Assembly: GCF_900343125.1 (NCBI RefSeq)
Contig: NZ_OPYL01000003.1
Span: 372,001 to 436,000 of the forward strand
Direction of reading: 5' to 3'
Length of the DNA: 64,000 nucleotides
DNA from: Dysgonomonas sp. Marseille-P4361
Lineage (GTDB): Bacteria; Bacteroidota; Bacteroidia; Bacteroidales; Dysgonomonadaceae
Shown here: one piece after another, positions 23,523-31,736 of the stretch
Layout: each line of letters opens with the position of its first letter
How positions within the stretch are numbered: the first letter of the stretch is position 1
Program-made: the position numbers and the translations under genes
The notes under the pieces: generated by a model
The model's input: the letters and a program-made list of their open reading frames with translations, nothing else
Told to the model about the DNA's origin: nothing
The model's database searches: none

Positions 23523-24569
23523 TTAGTTATTTTCTGGTCTTAGTTTACGAACAACTTCTCCTGTACGCCACATTTCGCTTTCGCGAAGCGCTTTTAGTTC
23601 TTCTTCTAGTTTCTCGCGATAATCAGGCTGAGAGTTTGTATCAATTGAGCGTTGAGCTTCATTACCACATGCCACTTCTTTATAAAGCTTTTCGAATACA
23701 GGTTTTGTTGCATCATGGAAAGGTCCCATCCAATCTAAAGCTCCTCGTTGAGCTGTAGTAGAACAGTTTGCATACATCCAGTCCATACCATTCTCTGCAA
23801 ACAAAGGCATCAAAGACTGAGTCAATTCTTCTACTGTTTCGTTAAACGCTTCAGATGGAGTATGTCCATTTTCACGCAATACTTCATATTGAGCAAGAAG
23901 TAGTCCTTGTATAGCTCCCATCAATGTCCCACGCTCACCAGTCAAGTCTGAGTATACTTCACGTTTGAAGTCTGTCTCGAATAAATAACCCGATCCTACT
24001 CCAATACCCAAAGCAACAACTCTATCTTTAGCACGACCTGTTGCATCTTGGAATATCGCATAACTTGAATTCAATCCTCTACCTTCTAAGAACATGCGAC
24101 GAAGACTAGTACCAGATCCTTTAGGTGCAACTAGAATTACATCTACATCTGCCGGAGGAATAATACCTGTACGTTCTTTGTAAGTAATACCAAATCCATG
24201 AGAGAAGTAAAGAGCTTTACCCGCAGTTAAATAAGGCTTAATGCGAGGCCATACTTCTATTTGAGCAGCATCAGATAGCAAATACTGAATAATTGTACCT
24301 TTTTCTGCAGCTTCTTCTATTTCAAACAATGTTTCTCCCGGTACCCAACCATCAGCTATGGCTTTTTCCCAAGTTTTACCACCTTTACGTTGACCAACGA
24401 TTACATTAAACCCATTATCTCTCAAGTTCAATGCTTGTCCAGGTCCTTGCACCCCATAGCCAATAACAGCTATAGTTTCGTTCTTCAAAACTTCTCTTGC
24501 TTTCTCTAAAGGGAATTCTTCACGTGTAGCTACTTGTTCCACTACACCACCAAAGTTCATTTCTGCCAT
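23523..24569 (-). CDS. ilvC: Ketol-acid reductoisomerase
   Basis: Isomerises and reduces acetolactate or acetohydroxybutyrate with NAD(P)H, the second step of valine/isoleucine synthesis. The Rossmann motif GYGVQGPGQALNLRDNG lies near residue 37; GQRKGGKTWEKA follows. Catalytic acidic residues are in DLTGERGTLMGAI and the helix with E..E. At 348 aa it is a short (class I) enzyme. It is the last gene of the ilvD...ilvC operon, 60 bp after the thioesterase gene. Confidence 0.97.
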   Translation of the reverse strand: MAEMNFGGVVEQVATREEFPLEKAREVLKNETIAVIGYGVQGPGQALNLRDNGFNVIVGQRKGGKTWEKAIADGWVPGETLFEIEEAAEKGTIIQYLLSDAAQIEVWPRIKPYLTAGKALYFSHGFGITYKERTGIIPPADVDVILVAPKGSGTSLRRMFLEGRGLNSSYAIFQDATGRAKDRVVALGIGVGSGYLFETDFKREVYSDLTGERGTLMGAIQGLLLAQYEVLRENGHTPSEAFNETVEELTQSLMPLFAENGMDWMYANCSTTAQRGALDWMGPFHDATKPVFEKLYKEVACGNEAQRSIDTNSQPDYREKLEEELKALRESEMWRTGEVVRKLRPENN

Positions 24570-24629: not shown

Positions 24630-25364
24630 TTATTTCCAAGTTATTCTGGAAGAACAAACTGTTGTATCTCCGTCTTTCATCTCCAAGATAAATACATCTT
24701 TACTTTCTTCCCGTTCTAATATATCCAGTTTTGAACCATAAAGCCCTTCAGAAATATAGTTAATCTCAATTCGTCTAATTTCTTTCTCTATAAACATCTC
24801 TATATCGAATACATCAACAAAATGCTCTATATATTTCATACTATTCAGATGCTTGTTTATATCCACATCGCTATAATTGACTACAAATTCTGTAGCTTTC
24901 TTATAGTTATCTTTCAATAAAGGAATTTTCCCCATACCCGCAATAGGATTTTCTTTTTCAAAAATATAGTCGGATAGTCCTTCCAATTCTAAAACATTTG
25001 TAGGTTTTCTGTTTGTAAGATCTATCGATGCCCAAAGCGATTTGGCATATCCAATAGAGTTACCTTCTTCATCTTCGAAAGCAAAATAACGCTCTGTTAA
25101 GATTCTGTTTACAGAAGCTACCCAAGTCTTAATAACCATTATTGTATCATTCTTGGGATATTCAAACACTTCTATAGCCATACGGGACAACACCCACACA
25201 CGCTGCTTTGAGGTCATTGAAGAATAGCCAAAGCCACGTTCTTCTGCATGTTTCGTTGCAGCTTGCAACATAAATCCTCCTATCATAGGAAGTGTTGCCT
25301 TCCCTCTAAAGTCTGTTAAATATGCATCTATACCAAATTCGTATTTACCTACAGGTTCAAACAT
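24630..25364 (-). CDS. Acyl-ACP thioesterase, 244 aa
   Basis: Hotdog-fold enzyme releasing fatty acids from acyl carrier protein. The first hotdog holds MIGGFMLQAATKHAEERGFGYSSM and KQRVWVLSRMAIEVFEYPKNDTIMVIKTW, and the second VNYSDVDINKHLNSMKYIEHFVD, where Asn-x-His is the catalytic pair. A gene of this family between ilvN and ilvC recurs in Bacteroidota, perhaps tied to branched-chain fatty acid control; that link is inference. It has 44 bp to ilvN and 60 bp to ilvC. Confidence 0.9.
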   Translation of the reverse strand: MFEPVGKYEFGIDAYLTDFRGKATLPMIGGFMLQAATKHAEERGFGYSSMTSKQRVWVLSRMAIEVFEYPKNDTIMVIKTWVASVNRILTERYFAFEDEEGNSIGYAKSLWASIDLTNRKPTNVLELEGLSDYIFEKENPIAGMGKIPLLKDNYKKATEFVVNYSDVDINKHLNSMKYIEHFVDVFDIEMFIEKEIRRIEINYISEGLYGSKLDILEREESKDVFILEMKDGDTTVCSSRITWK

Positions 25365-25409
25365 TTATCTTTTATTTTTTGTGTAATTATTCTAAGTTTA
25401 TATTTTCTT

Positions 25410-25964
25410 TCAATTATTTACAGCCTTACGCTTGGCGTCTATTTCTTCAAGCATATCACTCAATCGTTCAATTTTGGACTTTGTTATAGCCACACGTCCC
25501 GAACGTATAAATTGCAATACACCTATTGTCTTACTCAATTCTTCAAATAGTTCCTGAGTTTCCTGATAGTGTCCTGTTTTCTCTAAAACAACACTATTTT
25601 CGTTTATATCCAGGATACGAGCATTATGCTTGCGAATAAGCTCTTCAACAGATTCTATCTTCAAAAATTCTTGAGTAGAAAGCTTATACAATGCGATTTC
25701 CTGATGTATCAATTCCTCATTTGTATTAAAATAAGATTTCAGAACATCTACTCGCTTATCTATCTGTAAGACTACTTTCTTTACAGTCTCTTCATCACAG
25801 AATACTGTCACCGTAAATTTGTGAATTCCCTCTAAAGCAGAAGCTGACACTGATAACGTTTCAATATTCAACTGACGACGTGTAAAAACACTTGTAACCT
25901 GACTCAAAAGTCCAACTGTATTTTCGGAAAATATAGTTATTGTATATAATGTTTTATCTTGCAT
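25410..25964 (-). CDS. ilvN: Acetolactate synthase small (regulatory) subunit
   Basis: Regulatory subunit giving valine feedback inhibition to IlvB. The N-terminal ACT domain (LYTITIFSENTVGLLSQVTSVFTRRQLNIETLSVS) is followed by a C-terminal ACT-like domain. A longer frame begins at TTG 25985; ATG 25964 gives the standard start MQDKTLYTI, 184 aa. It lies downstream of a lipoprotein gene that separates it from ilvB, which is unusual since ilvB and ilvN are normally adjacent. Confidence 0.95.
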   Translation of the reverse strand: MQDKTLYTITIFSENTVGLLSQVTSVFTRRQLNIETLSVSASALEGIHKFTVTVFCDEETVKKVVLQIDKRVDVLKSYFNTNEELIHQEIALYKLSTQEFLKIESVEELIRKHNARILDINENSVVLEKTGHYQETQELFEELSKTIGVLQFIRSGRVAITKSKIERLSDMLEEIDAKRKAVNN

Positions 25965-26004
25965 AATATTGGGTTTTAATATCAATCTGTTTTTATTAGG
26001 TAAA

Positions 26005-26952
26005 CTATCCTGAGATATCTGAAGTTTCTGATTCTATCAAAGTCCATTTTTCTCCATCAAATTTATATGTCTGCTCATAAAGATTGCCATGCCAAGAAGT
26101 GTAGGTAGTGGTAGTACTGTCAGTATAATTAATATCCGGCAATGTGTATACATCATCTAATATATCTGTAGGAGAATACATTTCTTCGTCAGGATTATAT
26201 AGCCAAAACATGAATTTATTGGGTGGATATGATGGGATAAATTCCATCATCGCTATATCGGGATAACCATCAAAGTTAAAGTCTTCCTGATAAACTGCAT
26301 AAGCTGACTCTACGGGATGTATATCTAGTGTAAAACTCGCATTTATCTCCTTATTCTGTATATACAATTCTGTAATATTTAGCGATACATACCCCGATTC
26401 ATATGTTTCTTTCTTGAGATCTACCCTAAACTCGAATTGAGGATAGCCCTTTTCATAATAATTCACTATCTCAAATGGCAGAATACGAATACTATCTACC
26501 GAATGCCATGTACCTGTTATTTTACCACTTTCATAGTTAAACGTCCCTTCAAAATAAGCCCCATTAGAAACATATACACTTTCTTGTTCATTATAAATAG
26601 TTTCTTCCAACCTTACATTACTATCATCTATTTTTCCTTTTAGTAATATTTCGTCTTTTTTTCCTTTGTAACGATAAAAGCCATCGACTTTACCACTATC
26701 GACTGTAAAATTCATTGTAAATGCATATTTCCCATCAATCTCTCCTTTCATGTAATAAGAAGATATTACTGGGATATGCGTTTTTTGTAAATATTCCACT
26801 TTTTCTTCCTCCATAGGAGCAGCTACTAACTCCTCATTACCAAAGTCACTACTAGCTGCTTCTTTCTTTAGCTTCCCTCCATTGCAAGAATACTGAAAAA
26901 TTAATAAGAACAGAGAGATTAAAAAGATATATTTTCTACAACGTCTATTCAT
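26005..26952 (-). CDS. Lipoprotein of unknown function inside the ilv operon, 315 aa
   Basis: An SPII signal (IFLISLFLLIFQYSC, Cys near residue 23) is followed by an acidic stretch and a beta-rich body with a repeated pattern YxxKGKKDEILLKGKIDDSN and FEGTFNYESGKITGTWHS. An Asp-rich segment DFNFDGYPDIAMM resembles FG-GAP/XAC2610-type calcium or binding motifs. Its start overlaps the end of ilvB by 8 bp, so the two are translationally coupled, yet its role in branched-chain synthesis is not evident. It may simply be a passenger. Confidence 0.75.
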   Translation of the reverse strand: MNRRCRKYIFLISLFLLIFQYSCNGGKLKKEAASSDFGNEELVAAPMEEEKVEYLQKTHIPVISSYYMKGEIDGKYAFTMNFTVDSGKVDGFYRYKGKKDEILLKGKIDDSNVRLEETIYNEQESVYVSNGAYFEGTFNYESGKITGTWHSVDSIRILPFEIVNYYEKGYPQFEFRVDLKKETYESGYVSLNITELYIQNKEINASFTLDIHPVESAYAVYQEDFNFDGYPDIAMMEFIPSYPPNKFMFWLYNPDEEMYSPTDILDDVYTLPDINYTDSTTTTYTSWHGNLYEQTYKFDGEKWTLIESETSDISG

Positions 26953-28645
26953 TTCCCAGCATTATATTTGTCACACAAGTTCCAGCAGGAACCATAGGAT
27001 AAACCATACCTTTTGTTTCTACTTGCACATCTAACAAATACGACCCTTTGTAAGAAATCATTTCTTCAATAGCTTTATCTAGTTCTGCTCTATCCGACAC
27101 TTTCTTTCCGGGTATATTATATGCTTCTGCAATCTTTACAAAATCAGGATTATTCATCACTGTTTCAGAATACCTTTCATCAAAGAAGAGTTCCTGCCAT
27201 TGACGTACCATTCCTAAGAAGTGATTATTCAGCAAGATTATTTTCACGTCAATTCCGTATTGCATAATCGTACCCAGTTCTTGAATCGTCATCTGAATAC
27301 CTCCATCACCTACAAAAAGGCAAACAGTACGATCCGGAGCACCGTATTTAGCTCCAATAGCAGCAGGCAAGCCAAACCCCATAGTTCCTAATCCGCCTGA
27401 AGTAACAACACTACGGCTTTGTGTATATTTAAAATAACGAACTGCCATCATCTGATGCTGACCAACATCGGTTACCAAAACAGCTTTATTATCAGTAGCT
27501 TCAGAAACTTTATTTATGACTTCTCCCATTTTTAGCTGACCTGAAGTAGGATACAATTCACTATCAATGACAGCATTATATTCCTTATCATAACATGCAT
27601 TAAACTCTTTCAACCACTCTGGATAAGTTTTCTCTTGCAATTGAGCTGTTATCAAAGGTAAAGTTTCTTTTACATCACCCAACACTCGTGCAGCTACAGG
27701 AACGTTTTTTCCTATTTCCGATTTATCTATATCTAGGTGAATTACCTTTGCTTGCTTCGCATAGGTATTCAAATCTCCTGTAACTCGGTCGTCGAAACGC
27801 ATACCAATAGCAATCAGCACATCACATTCATTGGTTTTCTGATTAGGGCCTACATTCCCGTGCATTCCTAACATTCCTACATTCTGCGAATGATTTGAAG
27901 GTACTGCCGAAAGGCCTAATACTGTAGAGGCAATTGGCATCCCTGATTTCTCAACGAAAGCTAACAATTCTTTTTCAGCATTACCTAAGATAACACCTTG
28001 TCCGACTAAGGTCATCGGCTTCTTAGCTTCATTTATAATTTGAGCCGCTACTTCTATTTCAGATTCTTTCACGTCCGGTTTAGGTTGGTAACTACGGATA
28101 AAATTGGTTTTCTTATATTCGTAATTATCTACTATCCCAAATTGTGCATCTTTCGTTATATCCAGAACCACCGGACCTGGACGCCCTGTAGAGGCAATAT
28201 AAAAAGCTCTGGATACAGCCCATGCAATATCCTCGGGGCGACGTATCTGGTAAGCCCATTTTGTAACAGGTTGCATTATGCCAACAACATCTGCCTCCTG
28301 AAACGCATCGCTACCGAGCAAAGACGATGCAACCTGACCTGAGATTACAACGATAGGTGTACTATCTATCATCGCGTCGGCAATACCTGTCACTGTATTT
28401 GTTGCTCCGGGTCCGGATGTTACTAGAGCAACTCCTACTCTACCCGATGTGCGGGCATATCCTTCAGCTGCATGGGTAGCCCCTTGTTCGTGACGAACCA
28501 AAATATGTTTCAATTTATCCTTGTAATCATAAAGACTATCAAAGACTGGCATTATCGCTCCTCCCGGATACCCAAATATGGTATCTACTCCCTCACTTAA
28601 AAGAGATTCTATAAGAGCTCTACTTCCTGTTATTTTGTTATCCAT
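26945..28645 (-). CDS. ilvB: Acetolactate synthase large subunit
   Basis: Thiamine diphosphate enzyme joining pyruvate with pyruvate or 2-oxobutyrate, first committed step of Val/Leu/Ile synthesis. Landmarks: GYPGGAIMPVFDSLYD, LVRHEQGATHAAEGYAR with the catalytic Glu, TSGPGATNTVTG, and the ThDP motif VGDGGIQMTIQELGTIMQYGIDVKIILLNNH. At 566 aa it has normal length. It follows a GT8 gene (62 bp) rather than ilvD directly. Confidence 0.97.
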   Translation of the reverse strand: MDNKITGSRALIESLLSEGVDTIFGYPGGAIMPVFDSLYDYKDKLKHILVRHEQGATHAAEGYARTSGRVGVALVTSGPGATNTVTGIADAMIDSTPIVVISGQVASSLLGSDAFQEADVVGIMQPVTKWAYQIRRPEDIAWAVSRAFYIASTGRPGPVVLDITKDAQFGIVDNYEYKKTNFIRSYQPKPDVKESEIEVAAQIINEAKKPMTLVGQGVILGNAEKELLAFVEKSGMPIASTVLGLSAVPSNHSQNVGMLGMHGNVGPNQKTNECDVLIAIGMRFDDRVTGDLNTYAKQAKVIHLDIDKSEIGKNVPVAARVLGDVKETLPLITAQLQEKTYPEWLKEFNACYDKEYNAVIDSELYPTSGQLKMGEVINKVSEATDNKAVLVTDVGQHQMMAVRYFKYTQSRSVVTSGGLGTMGFGLPAAIGAKYGAPDRTVCLFVGDGGIQMTIQELGTIMQYGIDVKIILLNNHFLGMVRQWQELFFDERYSETVMNNPDFVKIAEAYNIPGKKVSDRAELDKAIEEMISYKGSYLLDVQVETKGMVYPMVPAGTCVTNIMLGNE

Positions 28646-28707: not shown

Positions 28708-29676
28708 TTATCTAAAAGTGTACTTTCCTGTTGCAACATCTTTTTTTATCTTATAATATCTAGGTCTTCTTAATCCTAAACTCATTAAGATTTTCTTTTC
28801 ATAATACTTATATTTTTCTTGGAATGTATTCTTCTTCCAGATCAAAGGTGCATCTTTCCATAAAGACAAAGATTTGTATTTCAAATACTCTTCCTTCATA
28901 GGGTGCATACAAGTTTTCATCCAAGGTTTATCAGCACCTGAGTAATGTATTATAGCCGGATCTTCTATCGCTTCAGCAATCTCTTCTCTATTTCCTAACC
29001 TTTTTGTTCTACGTCTATAATAATACTCATGTACATTATATTTTACAGGCAAAAGTAATTTTGTATCATACAAAGTGCCATTCAGGATATCTTGATCGTA
29101 GAAAAACAATTTACCTTCTATCTTTTTAAAATAATCTAGAAAAACAGTTACCAGATCATGTTTCCTCCAATATTCAATATTTATAAAAACTATTCCGGCA
29201 TTGAAATATTTGTAACTCTCATCGTATCCTAAAAATTTAAATATTGAAAACTTTTGGCTGCTTGCATACAAATCTTCTATTCCTGCAATTGAATAATTTT
29301 CAATATCTATTTGCCATAAATCAGATAAATCCTTCCGAACTATAACATCACAATCGAGATAAATAACTTTCGTCACATCTTCAGGCAAGATATCTCCTAA
29401 GAAGAGTCTCATATAAGTAGCTACACTCATATATTGAGAATCAAACACCGAAAAATTATAGGACTCTATAAAATCTTTCTTTAACTCATAGAATTTAAAC
29501 GTAGCATTATCATAGATGGAAGAAATTGAGCGCAACTTATCTTTTACACTCTCAGCTAAGTCCATACTTACAATATGGAATACGAGTGAGCTTTTTTTAT
29601 TATTCTCCAATATAGAGGTTATTGTTACCCCGCATGGCATTGCATAATTATTATCTGTACAAAGGACAATATCCAT
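28708..29676 (-). CDS. Glycosyltransferase family 8, 322 aa
   Basis: GT-A enzyme with the family start MDIVLCTDNNYAMPCGVTITSIL and DxD motif VIYLDCDVIV (about residue 106). HYSGADKPWM near the C-terminus is typical of LPS galactosyl/glucosyltransferases. It uses a UDP-sugar and a divalent metal. Its gene sits between ilvD (18 bp) and ilvB (62 bp), with no terminator on either side, so it should be transcribed with the ilv genes despite an unrelated function. Confidence 0.88.
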   Translation of the reverse strand: MDIVLCTDNNYAMPCGVTITSILENNKKSSLVFHIVSMDLAESVKDKLRSISSIYDNATFKFYELKKDFIESYNFSVFDSQYMSVATYMRLFLGDILPEDVTKVIYLDCDVIVRKDLSDLWQIDIENYSIAGIEDLYASSQKFSIFKFLGYDESYKYFNAGIVFINIEYWRKHDLVTVFLDYFKKIEGKLFFYDQDILNGTLYDTKLLLPVKYNVHEYYYRRRTKRLGNREEIAEAIEDPAIIHYSGADKPWMKTCMHPMKEEYLKYKSLSLWKDAPLIWKKNTFQEKYKYYEKKILMSLGLRRPRYYKIKKDVATGKYTFR

Positions 29677-29693: not shown

Positions 29694-31523
29694 TTATTCT
29701 ATAATTCTAACTCCACCTAAATCTGCAGAACTCACCATGCTTGCATAAGCTCTTAATGCCTTAGAAACAGTACGGTTTCGATTTGGTTTGAATGCATCTT
29801 TACCTTTAGCCAATTCTTCTTGACGACGCTTTTCAAGTTCATTGTCGGATAATCTAACATTTATAGAGCGGTTAGGAATATCAATATCTATAATGTCTCC
29901 ATCACGCACCAAACCAATAGCCCCGCCCGAAGCTGCCTCCGGAGAAACATGCCCGATAGAGAGACCTGATGTACCACCCGAAAAACGTCCGTCCGTAATT
30001 AAAGCACATTCTTTTCCTAAGTGTCTGGATTTGATATATGAAGTAGGATAAAGCATTTCTTGCATACCCGGTCCACCTTTAGGCCCTTCGTATGTAATAA
30101 TAACTACATCTCCAGCCACAACCTTTCCTTTAAGGATTCCTTCACAAGCATCATCCTGAGAATGGAAAACTTTTGCTGTACCCGAAAACTTGAATATGCT
30201 TTCGTCCACACCGGCTGTTTTTACAACACAACCATTTAGAGCAATATTCCCTTTCAGTATAGCTAATCCTCCATCTTGAGTATAGGCATGCTCAATATCT
30301 CGGATACAGCCTTCTGTGCGGTCAGCATCTAAAGTTGGATAATAGTTATCCTGAGATCCCATAACCAGGTTAAAGCGATTTCCCGGTGCTGACTTATATA
30401 GAATTTCTGCATCTTTAGAGACACTAGAAGATGTTATATTATATTTTTCTATCGCTTGAGCCAAAGTTAAACCATCAACCCTTGATACAGAAGTATCTAT
30501 CAGCTTGGCTTTTTCCAATTCTGCCATTATAGCAAGAATACCTCCTGCTCTGTTTACATCTTGAATATGATATTTCTGCGTATTTGGAGCAACCTTACAG
30601 AAGCAAGGAGTTTTGCGCGAAAGTCTATCAATATCATCCATCGTAAAGTCGACCTCTGCTTCCTGAGCGATAGCTAACAAGTGAAGGATTGTATTCGTAG
30701 ATCCCCCCATAGCAATATCAAGAGTCATCGCATTTAAGAAGGCTTGTTTTGTTCCTATATTCCGAGGAAGGACTGACTCATCCCCATCTCTATAATATCG
30801 ATAGGCATTTTCTACAATTTGTTTTGCTGCATCTTTGAATAGCTTTGATCGATTAGCATGTGTAGCTACAACCGTTCCGTTACCAGGCAAAGCCAATCCT
30901 ATAGCCTCATTCAGACAGTTCATCGAATTTGCCGTAAACATTCCCGAACAAGATCCACATGTAGGGCAAGCTGCACGCTCGATCGCATTTACCTCTCTGT
31001 CAGAAACCGTATCATCTGCAGCTTTTATCATTGCATCGATAAGATCCAGATGTTTATTATCTAACTCTCCGGCCTCCATAGGACCTCCAGAGACAAATAT
31101 TGCAGGAATGTTCAGACGCATAGCAGCCATCAACATACCCGGGGTGATTTTATCACAATTGCTAATACAAATCATAGCATCAGCCTTATGTGCATTTACC
31201 ATATATTCTACGCTATCGGCAATCAGATCTCTAGAGGGCAAAGAATATAACATGCCATCATGCCCCATTGCAATTCCATCGTCAATAGCGATTGTATTAA
31301 ATTCAGCTGCGAAGCATCCTAAAGCCTCTATCTCGGCTTTTACTTTCTGACCTATTTCATGCAAATGGACATGCCCCGGAACAAATTGTGTGAAAGAATT
31401 CACTATAGCGATCAATGGTTTTCCCATTTGTTCTTCTTTCATCCCGTTGGCTCTCCATAGAGCTCTTGCTCCGGCCATACGGCGTCCTTGTGTGCTAGTA
31501 GAGCTTCTTAGTTCAAATTTCAT
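29694..31523 (-). CDS. ilvD: Dihydroxy-acid dehydratase
   Basis: Dehydrates dihydroxyisovalerate and dihydroxymethylvalerate, third step of branched-chain synthesis, with an iron-sulfur cluster and Mg2+. Cys motifs [12 protein letters not shown] and [20 protein letters not shown] are present, plus [24 protein letters not shown] longer frame begins TTG-AGT upstream; ATG 31523 (MKFELRSST) is the better start, 609 aa. It is the first gene of the operon and lies right behind the attenuator. Confidence 0.97.
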
Positions 31524-31540
31524 ACTCAAATGTTGTTATA

Positions 31541-31646
31541 AAAAAATAGCCTTTCCCACAACGAGAAAGGCTTATATTTCATTTAGTCCTTATAATTTAT
31601 TCATTATAATACATACCTTCCTCATCTATTCTGCTCGACGAGGAGA
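31541..31646 (-). promoter_or_regulatory. Transcription attenuator upstream of ilvD
   Basis: Four segments of the leader RNA can pair in exclusive ways, reading the minus strand. Segment 1 (31646-31637, AA..UCCUCGUC) covers the Leu-Leu-Val codons; segment 2 (31626-31616, GAUGAGGAAGG); segment 3 (about 31572-31563, AGCCUUUCUC); segment 4 (31557-31548, GGGAAAGGCU). UCCUCGUC pairs with GAUGAGGA; GAGGAAGG pairs with CCUUUCUC; segment 3 pairs with 4 to make a terminator followed by A-UUUUUU (31547-31541). Stalling at the branched-chain codons would free 2 to block the terminator. A second mini-ORF (ATG 31625) overlaps the leader stop. Confidence 0.85.
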
Positions 31647-31684
31647 ATATCAAGAATAAGAATATGTAAAAAACAATTTGTCAT
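31622..31684 (-). CDS. ilvL: ilv leader peptide, 20 aa
   Basis: ATG at 31684 opens a 20-codon frame, MTNCFLH then Ile-Leu-Ile-Leu-Asp-Ile-Leu-Leu-Val, then EQNR and TGA at 31624-31622. Eight of nine consecutive codons encode Ile, Leu or Val, the amino acids of the downstream pathway. It sits about 20 nt after the predicted transcription start and 98 bp before the ilvD ATG, with a terminator in between. The stop codon falls inside segment 2 of the attenuator, as the mechanism requires. The gene is too short for ordinary gene calling. Confidence 0.88.
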   Translation of the reverse strand: MTNCFLHILILDILLVEQNR

Positions 31685-31706
31685 ATTTTTGTTGTCAATG
31701 ATATCA

Positions 31707-31736
31707 CAAAGTTATAAACTTTTTTTTATTATCAAA
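31707..31736 (-). promoter_or_regulatory. Promoter of the ilv operon
   Basis: On the minus strand, TTTG (-33) at 31736-31733 and TAACTTTG (-7) at 31714-31707, 18 bp apart from TTG to TA. This is close to the Bacteroidota consensus. Transcription would start near 31700, about 16-20 nt before the leader ATG. Confidence 0.7.

Follow-up and report, generated by a model that had tools for sequence, protein, structure and literature searches.

Organization of the ilv operon and its leader

The stretch of Dysgonomonas DNA analysed here (the window, 64,000 nucleotides of a 3.3-Mb genome) carries on its minus strand ilvD, with ilvB, ilvN and ilvC downstream on the same strand and three other genes interspersed. 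The ilv genes are as follows.

29694..31523, minus strand: ilvD, dihydroxy-acid dehydratase, first gene after the putative attenuator (TIGR00110, 803.7 bits, cut-off 618.15)
26945..28645, minus strand: ilvB, acetolactate synthase large subunit (TIGR00118, 714.8 bits, cut-off 538.35)
25410..25985, minus strand: ilvN, acetolactate synthase small subunit (TIGR00119, 85.3 bits, cut-off 56.9)
23523..24569, minus strand: ilvC, ketol-acid reductoisomerase (TIGR00465, 331.3 bits, cut-off 226.15)

The genes after ilvD are presumably co-transcribed with it. A family-8 glycosyltransferase gene (28708-29676, minus strand) separates ilvD from ilvB; in 17 relatives inspected by eye the same position holds a similar gene, unrelated genes or nothing, as though the operon had a slot for cargo here. 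The other two interspersed genes (24630-26952, minus strand) encode a 315-amino-acid protein without Pfam match, in the ilvB-ilvN gap, and an acyl-ACP thioesterase, in the ilvN-ilvC gap.

Upstream of ilvD, positions 31736-31540 of the minus strand contain a promoter, a leader ORF, mutually exclusive RNA pairings and an intrinsic terminator, as read from the sequence.

31707..31736, minus strand: promoter of Bacteroidota type (TTTG at 31736-31733, 18-nt spacer, TAACTTTG at 31714-31707)
31622..31684, minus strand: leader ORF of 20 codons, MTNCFLHILILDILLVEQNR followed by a stop, containing ILILDILLV
31662..31668, minus strand: outer 5' arm of the family-wide 1:2 hairpin, UACAUAU, in codons 6-8 (partner 31616-31610; the alignment is fitted to this hairpin)
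31637..31644, minus strand: segment 1 as folded in the window genome, UCCUCGUC, within the Leu-Leu-Val codons (folds of 31535-31697 and 31535-31650)
31615..31626, minus strand: segment 2, GAUGAGGAAGGU; the stop codon of the leader, UGA (31624-31622), lies within it
31563..31570, minus strand: segment 3, CCUUUCUC, partner of segment 2 (antiterminator) or of segment 4 (terminator)
31548..31557, minus strand: segment 4, GGGAAAGGCU, 3' arm of the terminator
31572-31548, minus strand: stem of the intrinsic terminator, 11 pairs
31540..31546, minus strand: T tract of the intrinsic terminator

The promoter at 31736-31707 was called by its match to the Bacteroidota consensus. The Ile/Leu/Val codons of the leader ORF are codons 8-11 and 13-16, and the terminator ends 16 nt before the ilvD ATG (31523). 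The promoter, the 20-codon ORF with its ILILDILLV run and the U-tract terminator that the original prediction had placed before ilvD are all present.

Conservation of the leader before ilvD and leuA

A pattern built from the leader found 26 matching stretches (17 from Dysgonomonas, 6 from Prevotella sp. and 3 from other Bacteroidales or Bacteroidia); ilvD lies directly downstream in 25 of them, and the 26th ends before ilvD could show. Within the family, 61 genomes were searched for ilvD and 56 matched; one locus from each of 54 genomes was used, leaving out a locus without anchor (L027 of genome G054), a genome in pieces (G045), the second copies L055-L058 and other extra copies. The full leader unit is present at 23 of the 54 loci, and at all examined loci in 5 of 15 genera (13/13 in the window's genus, then 6/6, 1/1, 2/2 and 1/1 in four further genera); when the U tract was judged by a strict rule, the scan found 22 family leaders and missed L049. 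The unit is absent at 31 of the 54 loci, from ten genera, and at many leaderless loci the end of a leuB-like gene lies just upstream of ilvD, as judged by eye. Among the family leaders Ile/Leu/Val content is kept despite changes in the DNA (for example MTNYLLHNLVSLNLLLIIRDK and MAINSAYNLVVLVICQCE). All 23 aligned leaders have the promoter motif TAnnTTTG with an upstream TTG, at a distance of 29-33 nt upstream of the leader ATG (TAnnTTTG alone occurs in 59/920 random windows from the same loci), and their segment 3 is identical in all eight bases. Genome G034, at 2.2 Mb the smallest of 13 examined in the genus, has a leader (L011) whose DNA has visibly drifted and whose Ile/Leu/Val content and pairings are kept.

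These comparisons bear on the proposal that the leader ORF acts not on termination but by raising ilvD translation through reinitiation, or by encoding a small peptide with a function of its own. Short upstream ORFs near gene starts of Bacteroidetes do show a peak, which the available text of PMC4833913 places at 11-14 bp, and would fit such a role. However, 98 nt and the terminator separate the leader stop codon from ilvD, and the length and order of the residues vary among relatives while the Ile/Leu/Val content stays constant. We therefore regard this proposal as very improbable and favour control of termination.

A leuA gene scored above cut-off in 52 of the 61 family genomes, and all 52 loci carry upstream an Ile/Leu/Val-rich ORF (at least 6 of 10 residues) followed by a terminator; in at least four of them (L155, L158, L169, L225) the ORF picked as best seems to be out of frame or too long, though the terminator is present. 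The leuA leader of the window genome reads MSTHSNIILSSLIILWKNFGVSIAM (L212). In genomes such as G004, G036 and G040 a distance of 5-7 kb separates leuA from ilvD on the same strand, and a single leader, that of leuA, may there act on ilvD as well.

For the order, 28 ilvD loci were used from 35 matching genomes, leaving out two already in the family set, L119 (no anchor) and four weaker rows without locus. A branched-chain amino acid (BCAA) ORF with a terminator lies upstream of ilvD at 19 of these 28 Bacteroidales loci, versus 0/112 shuffles, and two of the 19 rest on doubtful ORF picks (L106, L133). The scan found no leader at the other nine, two of which (L129, L142) are matched by a covariance model built from the 23 family ilvD leaders. 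Run on the order and on the phylum with stricter filters, at which weak matches are lost, this model matched 42/295 Bacteroidales genomes (3 of them training genomes). Thirty of the 52 model matches listed were decoded, 24 lying before ilvD and 6 before leuA as judged by the N-termini of the genes, and all 30 give a BCAA-rich reading, 7 without an ATG at the model's first position; for L111 this reading needs a different frame (by eye).

In the phylum the model matched 10/296 genomes, 8 of them outside the order. A fitting leader is present at four of these eight loci (L333, L334, L335, L339), and nothing fitting was found at the other four. L335 is a BCAA leader before an ilvD-like gene and L339 a BCAA-rich leader. 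L333 (MTTNNTIIITIITTGINLGGR) and L334, from the class outside the order, are Thr/Ile-rich leaders before an aspartate-kinase-like gene; Thr and Ile are also the regulatory residues of E. coli thrL. The class search listed 23 places, from which 15 more ilvD loci were taken; among them there is one clear leader, L341, from the same order, and one possible leader, L350. L353 passed the scan, but only by way of the apparent end of a membrane protein.

Alternative pairings of the leader RNA

The 163-nt leader folds at -37.9 kcal/mol, versus -25.1 (sd 3.3) for shuffled sequences, none of 200 being as good. Segment 3 CCUUUCUC can pair either with segment 2 (GAGGAAGG) or with segment 4 (GGGAAAGG); folded alone, the 2:3 piece reaches -14.6 kcal/mol and the 3:4 piece -15.0 kcal/mol, and in each case 1/200 shuffles is as good. 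All three states are able to form in 23 folded relatives, and 2:3 and 3:4 have near-equal energies in the longer folds, so that the outcome must depend on co-transcriptional timing, as in the classical model.

The 1:2 pairing proposed at the outset, UCCUCGUC with GAUGAGGA, stands in part: it forms in longer pieces of the window genome, but the relatives share a longer hairpin (UACAU..CC with GG..AUGUA, plus AUUCU:AGAAU). The 1:2 hairpin is also less certain than 2:3 and 3:4, with a double change at all 15 model pairs, in an alignment fitted to this hairpin, but details that vary between species and a fold that is not significant on its own in the window genome, where the 1:2 piece (31684-31600) reaches -16.7 kcal/mol and 28/200 shuffles do as well. 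A second start codon at GGUAUG/GGUGUG, after segment 2, was considered and dropped by eye, the frames that follow being short and mutually unlike; the A/G change there also fits pairing with CAUAU/CAUGU, which argues against a start codon.

Covariation was measured on 70 model matches from 79 sources (69 distinct, 23 being the training set), an alignment that replaced a looser one of 90 matches containing opposite-strand chance matches. The 2:3 pairing is not part of the covariance model. It is paired in 86.7% of cells over the 70 leaders, and slid partners in 43-60%. Double-changed cells number 34, versus 10.4 in shuffles, a value that none of 500 shuffles reaches, and the covariation score is 0.146 versus 0.075. 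The number of 2:3 pairs with a double change (5, reached by 70/500 shuffles) and that of further pair types (17, reached by 39/500) are not clearly above chance. Joint changes of the two segments can be seen directly, as in GAGAAUGG/CCAUUCUC, GAAGAAAGG/CCUUUCUUC and CCGGGAAGG/CCUUCCCGG. The model pairs of 1:2 and 3:4 together have 172 double-changed cells versus 42.4, in an alignment that leans to these pairs; the 3:4 helix, to which the alignment is also fitted, is 95.8% paired over the 70 leaders and has the compensatory changes in relatives that had been anticipated.

Each segment 2 was also scored against its own segment 3 and against unlike segments 3, with p-values that ignore relatedness. 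In the order ilvD set the own pairing averages -15.1 kcal/mol and the unlike pairings -10.6 (p 9.5e-6); the p-values are 4e-4 for leuA, 3.7e-4 and 3.4e-3 for hisG and 1e-6 for pheA leaders (for these other operons, see below). The effect is barely present in the ilvD family set (p 0.041), in which both segments show little variation, and it is absent from trpE leaders (p 0.28). The double changes and the fit of each segment 2 to its own segment 3 bear out the prediction of a 2:3 antiterminator maintained by compensatory changes.

Codons, stop codon and predicted ribosome position

From the first base of the last regulatory codon to the start of segment 2, the median distance is 15 nt in the family ilvD leaders, 15 in the order ilvD leaders, 17 at leuA, 17 at hisG and 14 at pheA (Phe or Tyr); at trpE segment 2 starts a median of 22.5 nt after the last regulatory codon, with wide scatter. 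The stop codon lies within about 15 nt of the start of segment 2 in 22/22 family ilvD, 17/19 order ilvD and 44/52 leuA leaders, and less often at hisG (17/24), pheA (10/25) and trpE (7/18). Relatives had been expected to retain the codon run as well as a stop at segment 2, and the family ilvD leaders do. This spacing is read against the size of a ribosome footprint: in ilvD and leuA leaders a stalled ribosome would just free segment 2, and a ribosome at the stop codon would cover it.

The Ile/Leu/Val fraction is 0.46, 0.50 and 0.43 in frame versus 0.23-0.29 and 0.09-0.13 in the other frames. CTC makes up 57% of the Leu codons of the 23 leaders and GTC 89% of the Val codons, versus 5% and 9% in 30 long ORFs of the window, where they are the rarest of their sets; this bias could be explained by slow decoding or by pairing. 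Val residues average 3.39 per leader in 41 ilvD leaders and 1.50 in 52 leuA leaders (p 2e-8, relatedness ignored), which would be expected if ilv were under stronger valine control than leu.

If the RNA itself sensed an amino acid or a metabolite, as a riboswitch or as a leader bound by a protein, the ORF would be incidental. The presence of CCUUUCUC in many ilvD and leuA leaders across the order, beyond the needs of pairing, speaks for such a device, as does the precedent of Streptomyces ilvB, a look-alike that failed: its regulatory codons were mutated without effect, according to the available text of PMC1262725, which counts against attenuation. However, the codon and stop spacing fits a ribosome, conservation is concentrated in codons, pairing arms and U tract, and no Rfam 15 family, T-box and known amino-acid riboswitches included, reaches its gathering score in the window leader, the best sub-threshold one being PyrR (23.6 bits versus 54). 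Such a sensor thus seems to us a very unlikely explanation, and a ribosome translating the ORF much the better one.

Leaders of other amino-acid operons

The upstream regions of hisG, pheA and trpE were scanned identically, with fixed thresholds and without the covariance model. The sets comprise 30/46 rows of the order search and 29/103 matching genomes of the phylum search for hisG (the locus of the window genome is in the order set only), 27/29 rows for pheA (the fragments L265 and L273 were dropped) and the best 27 rows for trpE (L274-L300; L301-L303 and weaker rows, which resemble other chorismate-using enzymes, were dropped). The threshold for the matching residue was passed for Ile/Leu/Val at 19/28 ilvD loci of the order and 47/52 leuA loci (at least 7 of 10 residues), and, in the order, for His at 23/30 hisG, Phe at 19/27 pheA and Trp at 18/27 trpE loci; phylum-wide, His passed at 10/29 hisG loci. 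In shuffles the matching threshold was passed in 0/112 (ilvD), 0/208 (leuA), 0/120 (hisG), 0/108 (pheA) and 0/108 (trpE) cases. Over all sets, with 108 to 216 shuffles each, Ile/Leu/Val, His and Trp never passed, and Phe passed in 1/208 for leuA and 2/108 for trpE.

The His and Trp thresholds were passed at no non-matching gene set. Other non-matching thresholds were passed at some loci: Phe at 16/52 leuA and 5/27 trpE, Ser at 13/54 family ilvD and 15/52 leuA, and Ile/Leu/Val at 3/30 hisG, 4/27 pheA and 1/27 trpE. The window genome itself has leaders at ilvD, leuA, hisG (MNNKMHHHHHFLLSTGK, within a longer ORF) and pheA (MKNFSFTYFFYFYFYFKGKTGFCM). The scan gives no leader at its trpE, which is probably not the first gene of its operon, the preceding gene looking by eye like trpB.

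Three pheA leaders (L246, L258 and L260) have at least five Phe codons in a row, as in MRRNSFRFFFFFAFFFCNGRNGVSYLY, and in others Phe alternates with Tyr. Many ilvD and leuA leaders across the order share an almost constant segment 3, CCUUUCUC, and hisG, pheA and trpE leaders have other sequences at this place; the sharing between ilvD and leuA leaders reflects either common origin or an additional constraint.

The match between residue and operon also bears on a third alternative, in which the hairpin simply terminates transcription of the pyrophosphatase gene upstream and the leader ORF is a hydrophobic ORF arisen by chance. In its favour, the pyrophosphatase gene shares the strand of the hairpin and has its end 301 nt ahead of it. 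Against it, a promoter match stands between the upstream gene and the leader ORF in every aligned leader; the unit of ORF and terminator recurs at leuA throughout the family set and at ilvD in further families of the order; and residue content tracks the operon. We consider this the least probable of the three alternatives and retain attenuation.

A model for control of the ilv operon

The locus combines a short ORF rich in the regulated codons, a terminator before the first gene, a 2:3 pairing exclusive with it, and a placement of codons and stop (looser in the pheA and trpE leaders) characteristic of attenuators. Taken together, the promoter match, the ORF, the covariation of 2:3 and 3:4, the codon and stop spacing and the matching of codons to operons, all of them properties of sequences, make it very probable that the ilvD operon leader is a classical ribosome-mediated transcription attenuator.

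In such an attenuator RNA polymerase would start near 31700 and a ribosome would translate the 20-codon leader, the two being coupled. When charged Ile-, Leu- or Val-tRNA is scarce, the ribosome would stall in codons 8-16, blocking the pairing of segment 1 and leaving segment 2 free to capture segment 3 as it emerges; the terminator would then not form and ilvD would be transcribed. With plentiful amino acids the ribosome would reach the stop codon on segment 2 and mask it, 3:4 would form with the U tract, and transcription would end. Without translation, 1:2 would form and lead to termination too, which is the role we propose for this hairpin. Termination would thus be conditional, and readthrough would be expected to respond to starvation.

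A wider proposal is that Bacteroidales inherited attenuation as their default way of controlling amino-acid biosynthesis (in ilv, leu, his, phe and trp operons, and elsewhere in the class through Thr/Ile leaders of thrA-like genes), that coupling is required over the leader RNAs, and that CCUUUCUC marks one ancestral BCAA switch that spread between operons; we give this an even chance of being right.

Comparison with known systems

The original prediction knew of no described case of attenuation by leader peptide in this lineage, and on this point it has to be corrected. Rfam family RF01692 (Bacteroid-trp), a 'Bacteroidete tryptophan peptide leader RNA' from PMC2864571 according to its available description, resembles the window leader in being a cis-regulatory RNA with a leader peptide at an amino-acid operon of this phylum, but for Trp instead of Ile/Leu/Val. 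Its covariance model does not match the window leader at gathering score; in a scan of 20 loci it matches 2/10 trpE loci and none of the 5 BCAA, 2 hisG and 3 pheA loci. Strong clues for leader-peptide attenuation before amino-acid operons, with 5' elements at pheA and hisG, are described for Flavobacterium psychrophilum in the available text of PMC9723704, in whose main text ilvD and branched-chain do not occur, and short ORFs reminiscent of leader peptides are mentioned for B. thetaiotaomicron in that of PMC7366714. In the literature searched, largely open-access main texts, we found no description of BCAA leaders in Bacteroidales. Flavobacterium psychrophilum belongs to the Flavobacteriaceae, outside the window's order, and Vitreschak (2004) reportedly may list cases from Bacteroidetes/Chlorobi. 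The window leader is, judging from its sequence and that of its relatives, a real and well-conserved attenuator of classical build, of a kind known in the lineage and thinly documented.

The leader set as a whole is a more interesting result than the single ilvD attenuator. A 2013 survey of Rfam motifs suggested that amino-acid attenuators may have arisen in gamma-proteobacteria, with very few transfers (PMC3766115, available text); an operon-matched set of leaders in many Bacteroidales speaks against such an origin with few transfers. In addition, classical attenuation needs a ribosome that keeps pace with the polymerase, so that these leaders could be used to test transcription-translation coupling directly in a phylum described, in the available text of PMC9723704, as lacking Shine-Dalgarno sequences. 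They could also act as amino-acid sensors in Bacteroides genetics.

Outside the phylum, the actinobacterial ilvB leaders likewise place a BCAA leader peptide and a terminator before an ilv operon, as far as the available texts of PMC1262725 and PMC11857589 describe them. A broader comparison is offered by the leader-peptide attenuators of Proteobacteria.

The classical members of that group are ilvL, ivbL, leuL, hisL, pheL, trpL and thrL. The window leader resembles them in its short ORF, in which the regulated amino acid abounds, in the 2:3 and 3:4 pairings, in a U-tract terminator ahead of the first biosynthetic gene and in rare leader codons, and differs from them in its phylum, its sequence, its Bacteroidota promoter and in having ilvD as the first gene.
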